NCBI GenBank assembly: GCA_902784435.1
Contig: CACZUR010000006.1
Coordinates: 1-64,000, forward strand
Length of the DNA: 64,000 bases
Direction: 5' to 3'
DNA from: an uncultured Bacteroidia bacterium
GTDB taxonomy: Bacteria > Bacteroidota > Bacteroidia > Bacteroidales > UBA932
The notes under the pieces were generated by a model. The model was not told the origin of the DNA, ran no database searches, and saw only the letters and a program-made list of their open reading frames with translations. Positions 9,273 to 58,213 of this stretch are shown here, one piece after another; positions within the stretch are counted from its first letter, which is position 1, and every line of letters begins with the position of its first letter. Both the position numbers and the translations under genes were made by a program.

Positions 9273-9346
<74 letters not shown>

Positions 9347-42534: not shown

Positions 42535-42563
42535 CAAATGTAGCGATAATTTTTGTAACTTTG
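42535..42563. promoter_or_regulatory. Divergent -7 boxes of the AIRS-like gene and folC
   Basis: Minus: TACATTTG (42542-42535), 4 nt from the AIRS-like ATG. Plus: TAACTTTG (42556-42563), 6 nt from the folC ATG. Both predict leaderless mRNAs; neither has a clear TTTG at -33. Confidence 0.55.
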
Positions 42564-42569
42564 TGCAGC

Positions 42570-44012
42570 ATGGAAGAAAGTTTTACCGAATTAGGCTACC
42601 AGAAGCTGGTACAGGACATATTCCGCCGCTTTCCCTCCGTCCAGAAGGACGGCTTTACCGCCGGTGCATACAAACCCGGCCTGGAGCGGATGGAAGCCTT
42701 CGACCAGGCCCTGGGGAATCCCTCCCGCAAGTTCCGCAGCATCCATGTGGCCGGCACCAACGGCAAGGGTTCCGTGGCCAACATGCTGGCATCGGCCCTG
42801 AGCGCCTGCGGCCTCCGGACAGGGCTTTTCACCAGCCCGCACCTCATGGACTTCCGTGAGCGCATGGTCATCGCCGGCGGCACCAGCAAGGGCGAAGAGG
42901 CCCCTAAGGGAGCATCGGCAGCTTCACTCATCCCCAAGGAATACGTCTTCCAGTTCCTGAACCGCTGGATGCCCTGGATCATCCAGTACGGTCTTTCCTT
43001 TTTCGAGATCACTACTGCCTTGGCTTTCAAGTGGTTCGAAGACATGCAGGTAGACGTTGCCGTCATCGAGGTGGGGCTGGGCGGCCGCCTGGATTCCACC
43101 AACATCCTGGTGCCGGAGCTTTCCATCATCACCACCATCGGCCTGGACCACTGCGAGCTGCTTGGAAATACCCTCCCGCAGGTGGCCGCGGAAAAGGCCG
43201 GCATCTTCAAACGCGGCGTGCCGGCGCTGGTGGGGGAGACGCAGGCGGAAACCGCGCCCGTTTTCAAGGAAAAGGCCTGGATGTTCTGCCCGCTCACCTT
43301 CGCGGACGAGCAGTCTCCCACCCTGTGGAACCGCCACAGGGAAATCCTGAAAGAGATGGATCTCAGGGCCGATGTCCAGGAAAAGAACCTCCGTACGGTG
43401 CTCTGCGCCCTGGATATCCTGCGCGACGGCCCGCTGGGCCTGGCCCTGGGCCGGGGCCTCTTCGGCATGGCGCCGGACTGGGAAGACACCCTCGTCGACG
43501 GCATCGTCCATACGGCCGCCCGCATGGGGTTCCACGGCCGCTGGGAGCGCCTGTCCACCCAGCCTTACGTGCTGGCGGATATCGGCCACAATCCCCAGGC
43601 GCTGGACAACAATTTCCGACAGCTGGAAAAACTGGTGGCCCGGGGGGATTTCTCCTCCCTCATTATCGTATACGGCATCATGGCCGACAAAGACCTGGAC
43701 GCCATCCTGCCGCTGATGCCCCGCAACGCCACCTACATCTTTACCACGCCCCAGACGCCCCGCGCCCTTCCGGCCGACGACATCCTGGAAAAATTCCGTG
43801 CCTTCAGCGAGGCCGCCGGCGACAATGCAAAAGCCCGTACCTTCGCCTTCTCCTCCGTGCGCCAGGCCGTCCAGATGGCCATTCAGCTGGCCCAGCGCCT
43901 GGGGGTGCAGCTCAGCCGCAGCGCATCGGCCGAAACTCCGGCCCCGCCGCTCATCTATATCGGCGGAAGCACTTTCGTGGTGGCCGAAGCCCTGCCGCTT
44001 TTCCGGCGCTGA
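42570..44012 (+). CDS. folC: Bifunctional dihydrofolate/folylpolyglutamate synthase
   Basis: 480 residues. It adds glutamate to dihydropteroate and to folates. P-loop 'HVAGTNGKGSVANMLASAL', 'LFTSPHLMDFRERMVIAG', 'FFEITTALAFKWFEDMQVDV', 'EVGLGGRLDSTNI', 'IGLDHCELLGNTLPQVAAEKAGI' and 'VLADIGHNPQAL'. The ATG at 42570 follows a -7 box; a TTG three codons earlier is inside that box. Between 'VIAG' and 'LIPKEYV' there is an extra stretch of ~15 residues (SKGEEAPKGASAAS) not expected in the family, matching insertions in the next gene. The C-terminal region also has extra Ser/Ala-rich residues. Confidence 0.95.
   Translation: MEESFTELGYQKLVQDIFRRFPSVQKDGFTAGAYKPGLERMEAFDQALGNPSRKFRSIHVAGTNGKGSVANMLASALSACGLRTGLFTSPHLMDFRERMVIAGGTSKGEEAPKGASAASLIPKEYVFQFLNRWMPWIIQYGLSFFEITTALAFKWFEDMQVDVAVIEVGLGGRLDSTNILVPELSIITTIGLDHCELLGNTLPQVAAEKAGIFKRGVPALVGETQAETAPVFKEKAWMFCPLTFADEQSPTLWNRHREILKEMDLRADVQEKNLRTVLCALDILRDGPLGLALGRGLFGMAPDWEDTLVDGIVHTAARMGFHGRWERLSTQPYVLADIGHNPQALDNNFRQLEKLVARGDFSSLIIVYGIMADKDLDAILPLMPRNATYIFTTPQTPRALPADDILEKFRAFSEAAGDNAKARTFAFSSVRQAVQMAIQLAQRLGVQLSRSASAETPAPPLIYIGGSTFVVAEALPLFRR
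42879..42926 (+). repeat. In-frame insertion element in folC
   Basis: About 45 bases coding for TSKGEEAPKGASAAS, an extra loop relative to FolC proteins. CCTAAGGGAGC (42903-42913) is the exact reverse complement of GCTCCCTTAGG (47939-47949) in the macroglobulin copy. The peptide pattern APxGAS is shared with all macroglobulin copies. Confidence 0.6.
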
Positions 44013-44063
44013 GCCCGGAGGCACAGTAATTGAAATAGACAGAGTAATCAATGTCGCTTTGCC

Positions 44064-47000
44064 ATGAAACGCATCCTCCTCTCTGCAGTGATGGCCCTCA
44101 TTGCGGCCGTTCTGCCTGCCCAACACCAGATTGCTAAAGCCCAAACTATGAACGGATATCAACTTGCGTCGCTCTGGAAAGAGTACACGGCCGCTTCCAA
44201 GGCGGACCTCCCGAAGAAAGAAGCCGCTGCCCTGGAAAAAATCAAGGCCGAGGCTCTGGCAAAACACCTTCCGGTAGACTTCTACGACGCCGCCACGCTG
44301 TACGTGAACGTGGTGCAGCGGCGGGACTGGAAGCAGCACGATGCCCTTCGCAGCACCCTGGCCAAGGAAGTGGAGCAGTTCAATGAGCCCATTGTCACCT
44401 TCCTGTGGATGATGGAGTGGGACAGCGCCTCCAAGTCCCGGCTGCTGGACTATGTGAAAGCCCATCCGGATGGCTTCCAGGGCAATCATCCATCCCTGCA
44501 CAAGGGTATTGACGGCATGCTGAACGGAGCGCTGCAGCACTTCGTGCAGACGGATAAGGAGTATGTGCTGTGGCGGCTGTATTCCCGCAATGACGACGTC
44601 TACAGCCTACTGAAGGCAGAACTGGGCGGAAGATATCCCGCGGACGGCATCCTGGAGTATATCAAGGCGTCCGACAAGTACTATTCCACGCGGGAGGAAG
44701 AATGCGCTGTGATGCAGGAGCTCATGGACCGCTACCAGGGTACAGCGCTGGGACTTTTCCCGGAGTCGGCGCTGCTGAGCCTGCGTTTCGACGCCCTGGA
44801 CAGCCGCAAGGCCCCCGCCGGGGACTATGAAGCCCTGTATAAGGATTGTCGGGCATTTGAAAAGCGGCGCGCCGCCTTCAAGGGGGAGGAAGCCGTCCTG
44901 GCCAAAGCCTGCGAGCGGGTGGAAGGCCTTGTGGACAGGCTTACCCAGACGGGTCTGTCCCTGGACGCCAACCAGCAGGAAATTTGCCTGGTGTTCCAGA
45001 ACCTGCCCGGGGCCGAAGTCAAGCTTCGGCAGGAAAAGAAAGTGCTCCAGACCTGGAAGGTGAAGAATACCGCCCGCAGTTTTTATCTGAGAGATACCGT
45101 GAAACTGGCCATGCCCGTGCTTCCGGACGGCAGTTATACCGTTGAGGCCGTCCAGGGAGACGATCTGGCCACCGACGAATTCGAGCAGTATACCCTCTCC
45201 ATCGCCACCCGCACGGACAGCCGCGGCCGGTGCGTGTACGTGACCGACTATGAGACGGGCGTTCCGCTGCGCAGCTTTACCCTGCGCCTTTATAAAAACG
45301 GCAGGGAACTGGCCTCCTCCACCATGGCACAGGACGGGTTTACGCCCATTCCCCAGGCCTTCCTCCGGCACATGGACAAGTCCGACGCCACTTTCCGCGT
45401 GGTGGCGGAATCCGGCACGCGCAAAACCCGCCGTCTGGCCCTGCAGAGCAGTTTCAGGCCCTCCAACCATCACTACGACTACACCCGCTGCAACATTTAC
45501 AAAGACCGGGGCGCCTACAATCCCGGCGACACGGTGAAGTTCAAGGTCATCGTGTATAAGGGAGACCCGGAATACAGCCTGGAAGTGGAGAGGGACAAGA
45601 AAGTGGAAGTGCGCCTGCACGACTCCGAAGACAATGTCCTGGAAACCCTGACGCTCACCACCAATGCGTGGGGCTCGGTTTCCGGCTCCTTCGTACTGCC
45701 TACGGGGCTCCGCAACGGCCGCTTCGAACTGGAAGTGGTGGGTATCGGGGCCGATTGGTTCCGCGTGGACGAATTCGTCCTGCCTTCCTTCGACCTCAGC
45801 TGGGACCGGCTGGACGACGTTTACTTCGTGGGCTCACAAGTGCCTGTGAGCGGAAAACTCATCAGTTATTCCGGTCACAAGCTCAGCGGTGCCCGCATCC
45901 ACATCCAGGTAAAGCATTACGGCTCCACCATCCTTCAAGAGGATATCCCTGTGGCCGATGACAACACGTTCCGCTTTGCGTTCAAGGCCAAAGACACCGG
46001 CTACTATAGTATAGAAGCTGCCGTGACGGACGCCACCGGTGAGACGCTGGAATTCACTCAGGGGTACTACATCGGTGACGAACTCCAGATAGAGGCCACT
46101 GTCCCGGACAAGGCCGACGACAACCTGCTTCCGGCCGAAGAAAAGGATCGGGAACGGTATTGGATGCGCTCCACGCCGCGTTACACCATTGAAACCACCC
46201 TTTTGAAAATGAAACTACAAGCCCGGGACGAGGGCGGCAACCCCGTTCCGCTGCAGGTGCACTATGAAGTGCTGGACGGTGCCGGACTGGCCATTGCCAG
46301 CGGGGACACCCCCTCCGGAGAACTGTTCTCCGTGCAGCTTCCCGGCGCGGGCCTGTACCGCGTGAAAGCCCGGGTCCAGGCGCTCAACGCGGCCGGCGCC
46401 ACTGTGAGCAAAGAGCAGATTTTCCGCATCTTCTGCATTCCTGAGGGGAGCCGTACGCTGTTCAAGGACGTGGCCCGCGTGTTCCTCGCCGGCCCCCTGA
46501 CGGTCGCTTCCGGCGCCAATATATCGGCCCGGATGGGTACCACCGAGGGCGATGCCTGGGCCGTGGTCACCCTGTACGGGAAAGAGCGCCAGGTGCTGTA
46601 TCACCAGATGCTGCACGTCTCCAATGACGCAGTGGCAGACATCTCCCTGCCGTACCTGGATTCCTATCCGGATGCCGTGCGCCTGCAGGTGTTCTATTTC
46701 ATTCACGGAGACAGCGTGAAGTTCGACCGACAGTATCGGCGCGAAAAGGATAAATACACCCTGCCGCTGCAGTTCACCCGCTTTGTGGACAAGGCCTTCC
46801 CCGGCGTGGAATACAGCTTTGCCGTGAAAACGGCCGTGGGCGTCGAGGCCCTGGCTGCCGTCTGGGACAAGAGCATGGACGCCATCGCCACCAACGACTG
46901 GCCGCTGGTAAACACCCGCGACGTCAATGTGGAGAGCGTATACGTGAGTTCTGTCTGCGGCCACGTGGGAACTGGCAGTAACGACGATGTGGTGGCCTAT

Positions 47001-49391
47001 GGCTACGGTGGAATACGGACCAAGGGCCTTGGGCGCGCCAGAAATAGTGCCGTGATGATGGACGTGGAAATGGCCGCCGCTCCCGCTCCCATGGAGGGAA
47101 TGGACATGGAAGAGGCCGTGCCCTTCCAGTTGGCGGAATCCAAGCCGCAGTTCGGCGTGCTGGACGATGTCCAGGTGCGCGAGGAATTCTCGTCGGCCCT
47201 CACCTTCCAGCCGCATCTGTATCCGGCGGCCGACGGCACCGTGAACTTCAGTTTCCGCACCTCGGACAAACTGAGCACCTTCTATGTACGCGTGTATGCG
47301 CACGACGCGCTCATGCACAATGCCATCTGCGAGGGTGAAATGGTGGTGTCCCTGCCCGTGAAAGTATCTCTGCTGGAGCCCCGTTACCTGTACGCCGGAG
47401 ACAGCTGGCAGGCCGCCGTCACCTTGTCCTCCATGGCCGATGAACCGGTTTCCGGCACCATCGCCCTCAAGGTAGGGGACACCGAGCAGCAGCTGCCCGT
47501 CACGGTAGGTCCCGGCGAGACGCTGGTGAGAAGCTTCACCGTAGCCGCTCCCGAGACGGCCGGCGAACTCACTGTCACCGCGGGCTTCAAGGCGGCCGAT
47601 TTCTCCGACGCCGTCCGTGTGAAGATTCCCGTGAGTCCCGCCGCCCAGGTTCTCACCGAAGCCCATTCCGCCGTGCTCCGCGCCGGCATGGACCGCGAGG
47701 CCCTGCTGCAGGAACTCCGCGCCCGTTTTGTGAACGTGCCTGGCGGAAAGGCCTCCCTGAAGGAAATTACCATCCTGGACATGGTTCGCGAGGCCATTCC
47801 CGCCCACGTGGAGCCCTCCGGCGCCGACGTTCTGTCGCTCTCCGAGGCCTGGTACATCCGCCTGATGGCGGATCGCCTGAACGGCGCCGAATCCGATGCG
47901 GAGGAAGATGCTCCTGCGGTCGCTGATAAGAAGGCCGATGCTCCCTTAGGAGCCTCTTCCTCTGATAGCGTCTCTGATGCGGAGCTTTTGGAGAAGGTCA
48001 TGGCCTGCAGGAATGCCGACGGCGGCTTCGGCTGGTTCGAAGGCATGAATTCCAGCCCCGTGATTACGGCGGTGATGCTGGAGCGCTTTGCCAAGTTGCG
48101 GGATCGTGGATTCGCGGTGCCGGATGTGGTATCGGCCGTGACGTTCCTGGATAAGGTGCAGTTCGGCGACGTGCCGCCCGTGTGGCGCGGCGGCCTGTCT
48201 GACGACCAGTATGTATACGTGCGTTCCATGTACTCCGAGGTGCCGTTCCAGGTGTCGCCCAACACGCAGGGCGGCAAGAAGCGCCTGGCGGAATTCAAGA
48301 AGAGCGTAAAGGCCAACCTGACGCCTTCCAAGGCCGATGGCCGCGGCCTCAAGGGCCAGATTCTGGCCAAGGCCCGCCGGCTGCTCACCCTCCGCAACCT
48401 GAACGGGCGCGAGGGCGGCATCGCCCTGGCCAAGGCCTGGGGCATCACGCTTGGGACATCGGCCAAACTGTCGGCCTCCATCAAGGCCGATGTGGCCTCC
48501 CTGCTGGAGTATGCCGTAGAGCACCGCGACGGCGGCTGGTACTACCCCAACGCCGTCATGCCGTGGCGCGGCCTGCTGGAGAGCGAGGCCTATGCCCACG
48601 CCCTGCTTTGCGACCTCATGAAGGTGGAGGCTTCTGGCGGGGCCGTCGGGAACGCCCCTTCGGTCGCTGATAAGAAGGCCGATGCTCCTTCAGGGGCGTC
48701 CCCGTCGGCCAGTAATAAGAAGGCCGATGCTCCCTCAGGGGCGTCCCCGTCGGCCGCCGAAGTGGCCGATGGCGTGCGCCTGTGGCTGATGCTCCAGAAG
48801 GAAACGCAGAAGTGGGATGCCGAGCCTGCGTTCATCGACGCCATTACCGCCATCCTGGATGGCTCCGAGGCCGTCCTGAACACCCGGGTGCTGGCACTTT
48901 CCGCCACGTTCGAGGCCCCGTTCAAGGACATCAAGGCCAGCGGGAACGGGTTCACCATCGGCAGGACCTTCTTCCGTGACGGCGTGGAGATCAAGCCCGG
49001 AGACCCGGTGAAGGTGGGCGACAAGATCCAGATCCGCTATAGCGTCTGGAACGCCGAGAACCGCTCCTTCGTGAAGGTGTCCGCCGGCCGAGAGGCTTCC
49101 CTGAGCCCCGTCCAGCAGTTGTCCGGCCACGTGGGCTACGGCTTCATCCGCCCGCTGCGGTCCGGCTTTATCTGGGGCTTCTACCCCCAGGGCTACCGCA
49201 ATGTGAAGGCCGCCTGCACGGAGTACTACTTCGACAGCTATCCGGAGGAGAAATCCGAGCTCTCCGAGGAGTTCTTCGTGGTCCGCTCCGGTGCCTTCGT
49301 GGCCCCTGTCGTCACCATCGAGTCGCTGTACGCCTCCCACTACCGTGCCAACGCCGCCTATCACGGTATCCTCACCTCCACGGCCGACTAA
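44064..49391 (+). CDS. Alpha-2-macroglobulin family protein (large, no thioester motif)
   Basis: 1775 residues. Signal peptide (1-19). An N-terminal helical region precedes macroglobulin domains: 'GRCVYVTDYETGVPLRSFTL', 'YKDRGAYNPGDTVKFKVIVY', 'LRNGRFELEVVG' and the A2M core 'REEFSSALTFQPHLYPAADG' with 'KLSTFYVRVYAHDALMHNA'. An alpha-alpha-barrel (thioester-domain-like) region follows from about residue 1240 ('MACRNADGGFGWFEGMNSSP'). I see no CxEQ thioester, so trapping would have to be non-covalent. It probably guards the envelope against proteases or acts in periplasmic quality control. Two low-complexity linkers (about 1280-1305 and 1525-1570) carry the repeated ADAPSGASPSA insertion. It starts 52 bases after folC. 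Confidence 0.9.
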   Translation: MKRILLSAVMALIAAVLPAQHQIAKAQTMNGYQLASLWKEYTAASKADLPKKEAAALEKIKAEALAKHLPVDFYDAATLYVNVVQRRDWKQHDALRSTLAKEVEQFNEPIVTFLWMMEWDSASKSRLLDYVKAHPDGFQGNHPSLHKGIDGMLNGALQHFVQTDKEYVLWRLYSRNDDVYSLLKAELGGRYPADGILEYIKASDKYYSTREEECAVMQELMDRYQGTALGLFPESALLSLRFDALDSRKAPAGDYEALYKDCRAFEKRRAAFKGEEAVLAKACERVEGLVDRLTQTGLSLDANQQEICLVFQNLPGAEVKLRQEKKVLQTWKVKNTARSFYLRDTVKLAMPVLPDGSYTVEAVQGDDLATDEFEQYTLSIATRTDSRGRCVYVTDYETGVPLRSFTLRLYKNGRELASSTMAQDGFTPIPQAFLRHMDKSDATFRVVAESGTRKTRRLALQSSFRPSNHHYDYTRCNIYKDRGAYNPGDTVKFKVIVYKGDPEYSLEVERDKKVEVRLHDSEDNVLETLTLTTNAWGSVSGSFVLPTGLRNGRFELEVVGIGADWFRVDEFVLPSFDLSWDRLDDVYFVGSQVPVSGKLISYSGHKLSGARIHIQVKHYGSTILQEDIPVADDNTFRFAFKAKDTGYYSIEAAVTDATGETLEFTQGYYIGDELQIEATVPDKADDNLLPAEEKDRERYWMRSTPRYTIETTLLKMKLQARDEGGNPVPLQVHYEVLDGAGLAIASGDTPSGELFSVQLPGAGLYRVKARVQALNAAGATVSKEQIFRIFCIPEGSRTLFKDVARVFLAGPLTVASGANISARMGTTEGDAWAVVTLYGKERQVLYHQMLHVSNDAVADISLPYLDSYPDAVRLQVFYFIHGDSVKFDRQYRREKDKYTLPLQFTRFVDKAFPGVEYSFAVKTAVGVEALAAVWDKSMDAIATNDWPLVNTRDVNVESVYVSSVCGHVGTGSNDDVVAYGYGGIRTKGLGRARNSAVMMDVEMAAAPAPMEGMDMEEAVPFQLAESKPQFGVLDDVQVREEFSSALTFQPHLYPAADGTVNFSFRTSDKLSTFYVRVYAHDALMHNAICEGEMVVSLPVKVSLLEPRYLYAGDSWQAAVTLSSMADEPVSGTIALKVGDTEQQLPVTVGPGETLVRSFTVAAPETAGELTVTAGFKAADFSDAVRVKIPVSPAAQVLTEAHSAVLRAGMDREALLQELRARFVNVPGGKASLKEITILDMVREAIPAHVEPSGADVLSLSEAWYIRLMADRLNGAESDAEEDAPAVADKKADAPLGASSSDSVSDAELLEKVMACRNADGGFGWFEGMNSSPVITAVMLERFAKLRDRGFAVPDVVSAVTFLDKVQFGDVPPVWRGGLSDDQYVYVRSMYSEVPFQVSPNTQGGKKRLAEFKKSVKANLTPSKADGRGLKGQILAKARRLLTLRNLNGREGGIALAKAWGITLGTSAKLSASIKADVASLLEYAVEHRDGGWYYPNAVMPWRGLLESEAYAHALLCDLMKVEASGGAVGNAPSVADKKADAPSGASPSASNKKADAPSGASPSAAEVADGVRLWLMLQKETQKWDAEPAFIDAITAILDGSEAVLNTRVLALSATFEAPFKDIKASGNGFTIGRTFFRDGVEIKPGDPVKVGDKIQIRYSVWNAENRSFVKVSAGREASLSPVQQLSGHVGYGFIRPLRSGFIWGFYPQGYRNVKAACTEYYFDSYPEEKSELSEEFFVVRSGAFVAPVVTIESLYASHYRANAAYHGILTSTAD
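47925..47966 (+). repeat. In-frame insertion element in macroglobulin gene, copy 1
   Basis: GATAAGAAGGCCGATGCTCC followed by CTTAGGAGCCTCTTCCTCTGAT, coding DKKADAPLGASSSD. It is preceded by GCTCCTGCGGTCGCT, shared (with two changes) with copy 2. Confidence 0.65.
48669..48755 (+). repeat. In-frame insertion element in macroglobulin gene, copies 2 and 3
   Basis: Two 42-bp units (48669-48710 and 48714-48755), separated by AGT, differ at only two bases. They code (D/N)KKADAPSGASPSA twice. Each contains GCTCC-YTCA-GGGGC and GGGG-CGT-CCCC, short self-complementary cores. Confidence 0.8.
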
Positions 49392-49618: not shown

Positions 49619-49693
49619 TGGGCGGTACTGGATTCGAACCAGTGACCCCCTGCTTGTAAGGCAGGTGCTCTGAACCAACTGAGCTAACCGCCC
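49619..49693 (-). tRNA. tRNA-Val (anticodon TAC)
   Basis: On the minus strand the acceptor GGGCGGT pairs with ACCGCCC, the anticodon stem CCTGC pairs with GCAGG around CTTACAA (anticodon TAC), and the T arm is CTGGTTCGAATCCAG. Discriminator A; CCA not encoded. Confidence 0.95.
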
Positions 49694-57876: not shown

Positions 57877-57910
57877 GACGGCCGTTTGAAGGGGGGGATG
57901 CCTCTTTTTT

Positions 57911-57945
57911 TTTGCATTTTTCAAAAATCGTACATAAATTTGTAC
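57911..57945 (+). promoter_or_regulatory. Promoter and palindromic operator of the toxin-antitoxin pair
   Basis: TTTG (57911-57914), 20 bases, TAAATTTG (57935-57942). The palindrome GTACA-TAAATT-TGTAC (57930-57945) encloses the -7 box, as expected where antitoxin or toxin-antitoxin complex represses its own promoter. Antitoxin ATG at 57959. Confidence 0.7.
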
Positions 57946-57958
57946 AAAATTTTGAACG

Positions 57959-58213
57959 ATGCAAGTAACTACCATTTCGAGTTTTCGGGCCAATATTAAG
58001 CAGTACTACGACAATGTGCTCCTCACAGAGGAGCCTCTCATCATTACCAAGGGAGAGACAGGAGCTGTACTCATCCCGCTTCCGGAATACAATGCCATGC
58101 AGCGCCGGCTGGAAATCCTTAGTAACAGCTCCGTAATGAAGGATATCCGGGAAGGTATCCTTCAGATGGCTGCGGGGCAAATGATAGAGGTAACGGACAT
58201 TGACGCGCTATGA
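57959..58213 (+). CDS. Phd/YefM-type antitoxin
   Basis: 84 residues. The N-terminal DNA-binding fold is that of Phd/YefM: 'TTISSFRANIKQYYDNVLLT', 'PLIITKGETGAVLIPLPEYNAM'. The C-terminal part ('REGILQMAAGQMIEVTDIDA') would wrap and neutralise the toxin. Its stop overlaps the toxin start by four bases (ATGA). The palindrome over its promoter is the likely autoregulatory site. Confidence 0.9.
   Translation: MQVTTISSFRANIKQYYDNVLLTEEPLIITKGETGAVLIPLPEYNAMQRRLEILSNSSVMKDIREGILQMAAGQMIEVTDIDAL

Follow-up and report, generated by a model that had tools for sequence, protein, structure and literature searches.

Short hairpins with a fixed loop and a variable stem are dispersed through the genome of an uncultured rumen Bacteroidales bacterium, mostly within unrelated protein-coding genes whose reading frame they preserve. 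We consider it probable that these are short mobile elements in which the loop is the fixed part, and that the stem is made at insertion as an inverted duplication of the target.

The window analysed, a stretch of 64,000 nucleotides of this genome, carries such sequences in two neighbouring genes:

42561 to 44012, plus strand: folC, host gene of a decayed copy (NCBIfam TIGR01499 folC, 285 bits against a cut-off of 163)
42885 to 42926, minus strand: probable decayed half element in folC (one arm and part of the loop), antisense and in frame, encoding SKGEEAPKGASAAS; core match at 42900-42919 on the minus strand
44064 to 49391, plus strand: alpha-2-macroglobulin-like gene carrying three copies (Pfam MG2 and bMG10 over cut-off, A2M below)
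47897 to 47966, plus strand: macroglobulin copy 1, full hairpin (left arm 47897-47923, loop 47924-47939, right arm 47940-47966)
48641 to 48710, plus strand: macroglobulin copy 2, full hairpin (left arm 48641-48667, loop 48668-48683, right arm 48684-48710)
48714 to 48755, plus strand: macroglobulin copy 3, a tandem repeat of the loop and right arm of copy 2 at a spacing of 45

A first-pass annotation of the window had noticed an extra loop in FolC, and SKGEEAPKGASAAS does stand at a site that in most of 80 relatives is occupied by no more than a short turn; five of them carry insertions of the same family there, in either orientation. The FolC proteins of two further loci (L172 and L183) have other repeats at this site. 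The motif is indeed present three times in the adjacent macroglobulin gene, and its last two units (48669-48710 and 48714-48755) are 42 nt each and differ at two bases, as had been said. The exact reverse complement of folC positions 42903-42913 (CCTAAGGGAGC) was also correctly recognised in the macroglobulin gene, but it lies at 47940-47950 and not at 47939-47949; the related stretch is longer than these 11 nt, with 19 of 20 nt matching. The small GCTCC-YTCA-GGGGC hairpin proposed for the units is not the main fold. Instead, each of the two full macroglobulin copies forms a hairpin of 70 nt, of which the 42-nt unit is the right half. Copies 1 and 2 match our covariance model R1 at E 1.3e-15 and 1.6e-15, and each has 21 of 27 positions paired, G-T counted. 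From its sequence, we read the antisense folC copy as a decayed half element, probably the relic of an inner deletion. Tandem copies, with arm and loop repeated, occur at three places in the genome (contig C9 near 124548-124662, contig C10 near 57906-57998, and the window at 48641-48755); in these, the partner is matched only by the arm nearest the centre. The window holds three tRNA genes as well, all on the minus strand (668-750, 9273-9346 and 49619-49693; Rfam).

The suggestion that a short self-complementary element has spread within genes while keeping the frame is borne out by its presence at dozens of genomic positions, mostly in unrelated genes. The genome assembly (G000 below) comprises 42 contigs and 2.23 Mb, with 82.6% completeness. 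A search with a 20-nt core, allowing at most 3 mismatches, returned 21 matches versus 2 for a reversed control; with a 26-nt core the counts were 32 and 0. Local duplication plus coincidence is rejected, since these genome-wide counts are too high for it. With the covariance model, 42 matches were obtained in G000, of which 40 have an E value no higher than 7e-8, and we refer to this dispersed set of about 40 copies, which includes the FolC and macroglobulin segments, as family 1. A full copy is a hairpin with a conserved centre, TRAWARRAAGGCCGAT, forming a 16-nt loop, and arms of about 15-33 nt. The arms are complementary within a copy and different between copies: CATTCCCCTGTGATTTTTT pairs with AAAAAATCACAGGGGAATG in one, for example, and CAAGGAGGACGGCACTCCT with AGGAGTGCCGTCCTCCTTG in another. 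The arms of a clearly intergenic copy (L081) are rich in AT and do not resemble the arms of copies in coding sequence. Across an alignment of 25 of the 30 copies found (five were omitted, three of these being low-pairing or overlapping), 163 of 675 cells were changed on both sides and 15 of 675 on one side. The covariation score was reached by none of 500 shuffles. When the family-1 model was applied to 101 genomes from 41 genera, it matched in six, all of one genus and G000 among them; in one relative (G028) the 12 matches are spread over 11 places.

A second family, with a loop of 38 nt, TCCGCGTCGCTTCGCGACCCTGTACGGGCAAATGCTCC, is present in some of the relatives that carry family 1. At E 1e-5, its model has matches in no fewer than 87 of the 400 genomes examined from the genus, with 11 candidates scored per genome, so that copy counts are lower bounds; among 393 genomes of the order (206 genera) it matched once, in G000 itself. 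As for viral vectors, neither loop pattern had an exact match in viral contigs. When twelve copies of family 2 are aligned, two-sided changes appear in 70 of 264 cells, and one-sided changes in none. The fetched loci yielded 77 copies, of which the 75 with a stem of at least 18 were used for identity and pairing. Loop identity among them is 0.93 and arm identity 0.55, and yet the arms pair almost throughout (1548 Watson-Crick, 21 G-T and 38 other among 1607 positions). The 38-nt loop is the same in both members of 98 pairs of copies, and the median arm identity of these pairs is again 0.55 (63 pairs at 0.60 or below, 4 at 0.90 or above); therefore the arms are not inherited with the loop by simple descent.

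A conserved loop on a covarying stem might also mark a structured RNA motif kept in mRNAs, and the covariation pattern itself speaks for this. We find such a motif very hard to credit, however, since the copies lie in both orientations to the gene, sister species do without them, G-T pairs are few (21 of 1607), and Rfam searches of the window and 11 loci yielded nothing but tRNAs at gathering score.

The origin of the stem can be followed at sites that are filled in one relative and empty in another. Over shared 17-kb loci, two sister genomes (G219, locus L173, and G328, locus L168) are 93.4% identical, and an outgroup (G223, locus L171) is 89.8-90.0% identical to each. Only three insertions could be polarised, in IleS, in DnaX and at macroglobulin site a, and we take all three as gains because the outgroup is without the loop at each. 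The empty IleS site in G328 reads ...TGACAGAAGGGGAAACCCTTTCT followed by GTCAATGAG, with G223 the same except for the first base shown; the filled site in G219 reads ...TGACAGAAGGGGAAACCCTTTCT, loop, AGAAAGGGTTTCCCCTTCTGTCAATGAG, an addition of 57 nt. The longest exact stretches of the left arm at the two empty IleS sites are 23 and 22 of 23 nt, and those of the right arm 8 and 8. For DnaX, GCGGGAGCAGAGGCTCC stands in both sisters of G219, and G219 has in addition ATCT-loop-AGAT-GGAGCCTCTGCTCCCGC; here the empty sites hold 17 and 17 of 21 nt of the left arm, and 7 and 7 of the right. At macroglobulin site a, the outgroup already has the whole right arm (21 of 21 nt exact, and 11 of the left arm), to which the other two loci add the loop and an inverted copy. 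Thus the insert at the three polarised sites consists of the loop plus an inverted copy of an arm that the empty site already contains.

An inverted repeat of 7-11 bp extends across 5 of 5 empty sites, whereas one as long does so at 0-4.1% of other positions in those loci. Arms were included in this control; for IleS and DnaX, nothing emerged from a version that required the loop to lie over the point of insertion. A swapped-arm test of 13 family-1 sites had a mixed outcome: 5 of 26 results were at the lowest possible p, where about 1 was expected, and the rest were without signal. The insert at each of the three polarised sites lies between direct repeats of 3-5 nt, which could be microhomology; the main duplication is inverted.

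These direct repeats would also suit the opposite history, in which the seemingly empty sites are deletion products of older copies and the host arm is a remnant, uninformative on the birth of the stem. Inner deletions do occur and leave remnants, among them the window's folC copy and, probably, L139. Nevertheless, this history appears distinctly improbable to us: the loop is missing from the outgroup at all three sites, IleS would need the same deletion in two lineages, and the empty IleS and macroglobulin linkers are of ordinary length.

It is possible, though on balance unlikely, that the whole hairpin transposes, arms included, that the arms then diversify, and that conversion or selection for pairing keeps them complementary. 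The FolC inserts, at 75-99 nt, are long enough for two new arms, and at two sites (macroglobulin site b and a methyltransferase site) neither arm was found in the sister's linker. Conversion between arms could also account for the mirrored arm changes at the sites in the M16 peptidase and UvrA. Moreover, a partial arm consensus is kept: the arms have a common purine-to-pyrimidine pattern, for which our own, unproven reading is target preference together with selection on the peptide. Transposition of the whole hairpin is harder to reconcile with identical 38-nt loops whose arms have a median identity of 0.55, or with the full arm that pre-exists at three empty sites. One-sided intermediates are, in addition, nearly absent across copies, although orthologues in sister species accumulate one-sided changes; insertions common to three sisters (prephenate dehydrogenase; L323, L366 and L370) differ mostly by one-sided substitutions.

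Other sources of the arms were considered and set aside. The lack of one-sided intermediates across copies and the evidence from orthologous copies disfavour compensatory drift in situ. Copying from elsewhere in the genome was rejected, as a search with 15 arms found nearly nothing beyond their own element; with E 0.05 as the limit, a single 19-nt stretch (E 0.014, region L242) was all that turned up. Nor do the arms appear to be internal quasi-palindromes, with no signal in family 2 (592 of 1000 shuffles were as high) and a weak one in family 1 (58 of 1000).

If the stem is made from the target, as we favour, insertion would take place at a short inverted repeat that the host sequence naturally contains, a-m-a', and would turn it into a-m-L-m'-a' (or a-m'-L-m-a'). 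Because L is added and the host segment m is copied inverted, a stem of about 20-27 bp would arise at once. Most simply, the target is probably folded single-stranded DNA that is opened at or near its loop, with L joined at the opening and gap filling across m giving the inverted copy. Alternatively, a replicative template switch returning at the pre-existing inverted repeat would yield the same product. Staggered-cut fill-in on double-stranded DNA gives direct duplications, and cut-and-paste transposition, as usually described, leaves a direct target duplication. After insertion the stem would decay, mostly by one-sided substitutions and internal deletions. A broader proposal, which we hold about as readily as we doubt it, is that this is a new class of mobile element, in which the loop alone is inherited and the stem is taken from the target each time as an inverted target-site duplication. 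Folded single-stranded DNA would be their substrate, and the linkers of essential proteins would go on being rewritten by them across the genus.

The host genes are identified with varying support. FolC and MurE are over their NCBIfam cut-offs, a truncated stretch of IleS reaches 612 of 621 bits, and short pieces match UvrA, UvrD/PcrA, AtpG, DnaX and prephenate dehydrogenase below the whole-protein cut-offs. Pfam matches identify the M16 peptidase and an MRM3-like substrate-binding domain. The remaining host genes are named tentatively from their sequence.

The frame is fixed for each orientation in most copies, and copies occur in both orientations to the gene. G000 has at least 37 distinct hairpins, any copies with the same sequence around the loop being counted as one. 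Of these, 33 can be read through in one canonical frame, the other 4 are in no long frame, and no hairpin is open solely in a different frame. For family 2 the canonical frame is open in 66 of 77, with 6 open in none and 5 only in others. Sense copies encode peptides of the type ...KKADAP... or ...SASLRDPVRANAP..., and antisense copies ...GASAF... or ...GAFARTGSRSD.... Several linkers have been invaded repeatedly, often by different families (FolC, IleS, AtpG, both macroglobulin linkers, UvrA and MurE). Most survivors are in flexible protein linkers and use the frame that gives a soft hydrophilic peptide; presumably selection removes the rest.

Since inverted chimeras are a known artefact of libraries and assemblies, and the genomes here are mostly metagenome assemblies, fold-back chimeras have to be weighed too. 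We regard this as very implausible, as chimeras would not be expected to keep a fixed frame in most copies (33 of 37, and 66 of 77), to appear as shared, decaying copies in sister species from different assemblies, or to have two different loops confined to one genus among the genomes searched.

Other palindromic repeats occupy some of the same linkers: those of IleS in G038, G057 and G054 (L102, L108 and L105), of FolC in L172, of macroglobulin site b in L131, L142 and L194, and of MurE in G057 (L264). The peptides from these include CHSERSEES, SVISSEVEKS, DQVGNDA, SVIPGSDRES and LRYAQND. The M16 peptidase gene is apparently split into two overlapping frames in G028 and G219, and in G000, G328, G223 and G422 both parts are joined in frame via an element (loci L060, at G000 C20:85926-85995, L367, L388 and L301, compared with L398 and L229).

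Known systems resemble these elements in part. MITEs own their terminal inverted repeats and make direct target duplications. The present elements are likewise small, dispersed and presumably non-autonomous, but copies with the same loop have different inverted arms, and the host DNA is duplicated in inverted form. Quasipalindrome template-switch mutation uses one arm of an imperfect inverted repeat as the template for the other, as seems to happen here, but it adds no fixed sequence, whereas here a constant loop is inserted at the turn. Rickettsia palindromic elements, to which the first-pass annotation had compared the unit, keep one conserved sequence over the whole palindrome, stem included, in contrast to the values found here (loop 0.93, arms 0.55). 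The comparison stands as an analogy, and they are the nearest analogue; they are not the same family, as here the loop is fixed and the stem site-specific. A review of MITEs gives them about 150 bp, several families, in-frame positions in unrelated protein genes and a conserved peptide per family (PMC10969869). Within that description, the likeness lies in in-frame insertion into unrelated genes with a family-specific peptide (here 33 of 37 and 66 of 77 copies), and the differences in length (about 70-85 bp here), fixed loop, site-specific stem and phylum.

REP elements with RAYT (Y1) transposases are described as having GTAG or CGTC tags, family-specific stems of 5-13 bp and mostly intergenic positions (PMC3733652). 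On that account they share with our elements short palindromic repeats in high copy, whereas here most stems reach at least 20 bp, the stem is specific to the site, and most copies are in genes. G000 has three Y1_Tnp genes; no element hairpin lies within the three Y1 loci of about 3.2 kb, and two copies sit about 3.5 kb either side of the Y1_Tnp gene on contig C4. The repetitive hairpin-forming elements of sponge mitochondria are reported to have conserved stems, variable loops and multiple invasions (PMC2800124). Multiple invasions are the likeness; the conserved loop and variable stem here are the reverse. No equivalent was found in the open-access literature on inverted target duplication, variable stems with conserved loops, rumen Bacteroidales palindromes or quasipalindrome transposons.

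If our reading is true, these elements would imply a different insertion chemistry, in which an element builds its own hairpin from host DNA; the signature it leaves could be sought in any genome. They would also offer datable examples of short disordered linkers entering essential enzymes (IleS, UvrA, MurE, AtpG, DnaX and FolC), which bears on the origin of protein loops. The two loops would be ready probes for the mobilising enzyme.

A possible third family is seen at L134 (15538-15689), L195 (14599-14728), the folC site of L183 and the methyltransferase site of L399 (G223). Its loops are about 75-108 nt, its near-perfect arms differ between copies, and three of the four have GGGAGGGGCC-like stretches. 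At the UvrA site, G179 (L348) and G180 (L339) have similar arms and opposite loop orientations, and the middles of their arms differ in mirrored fashion.
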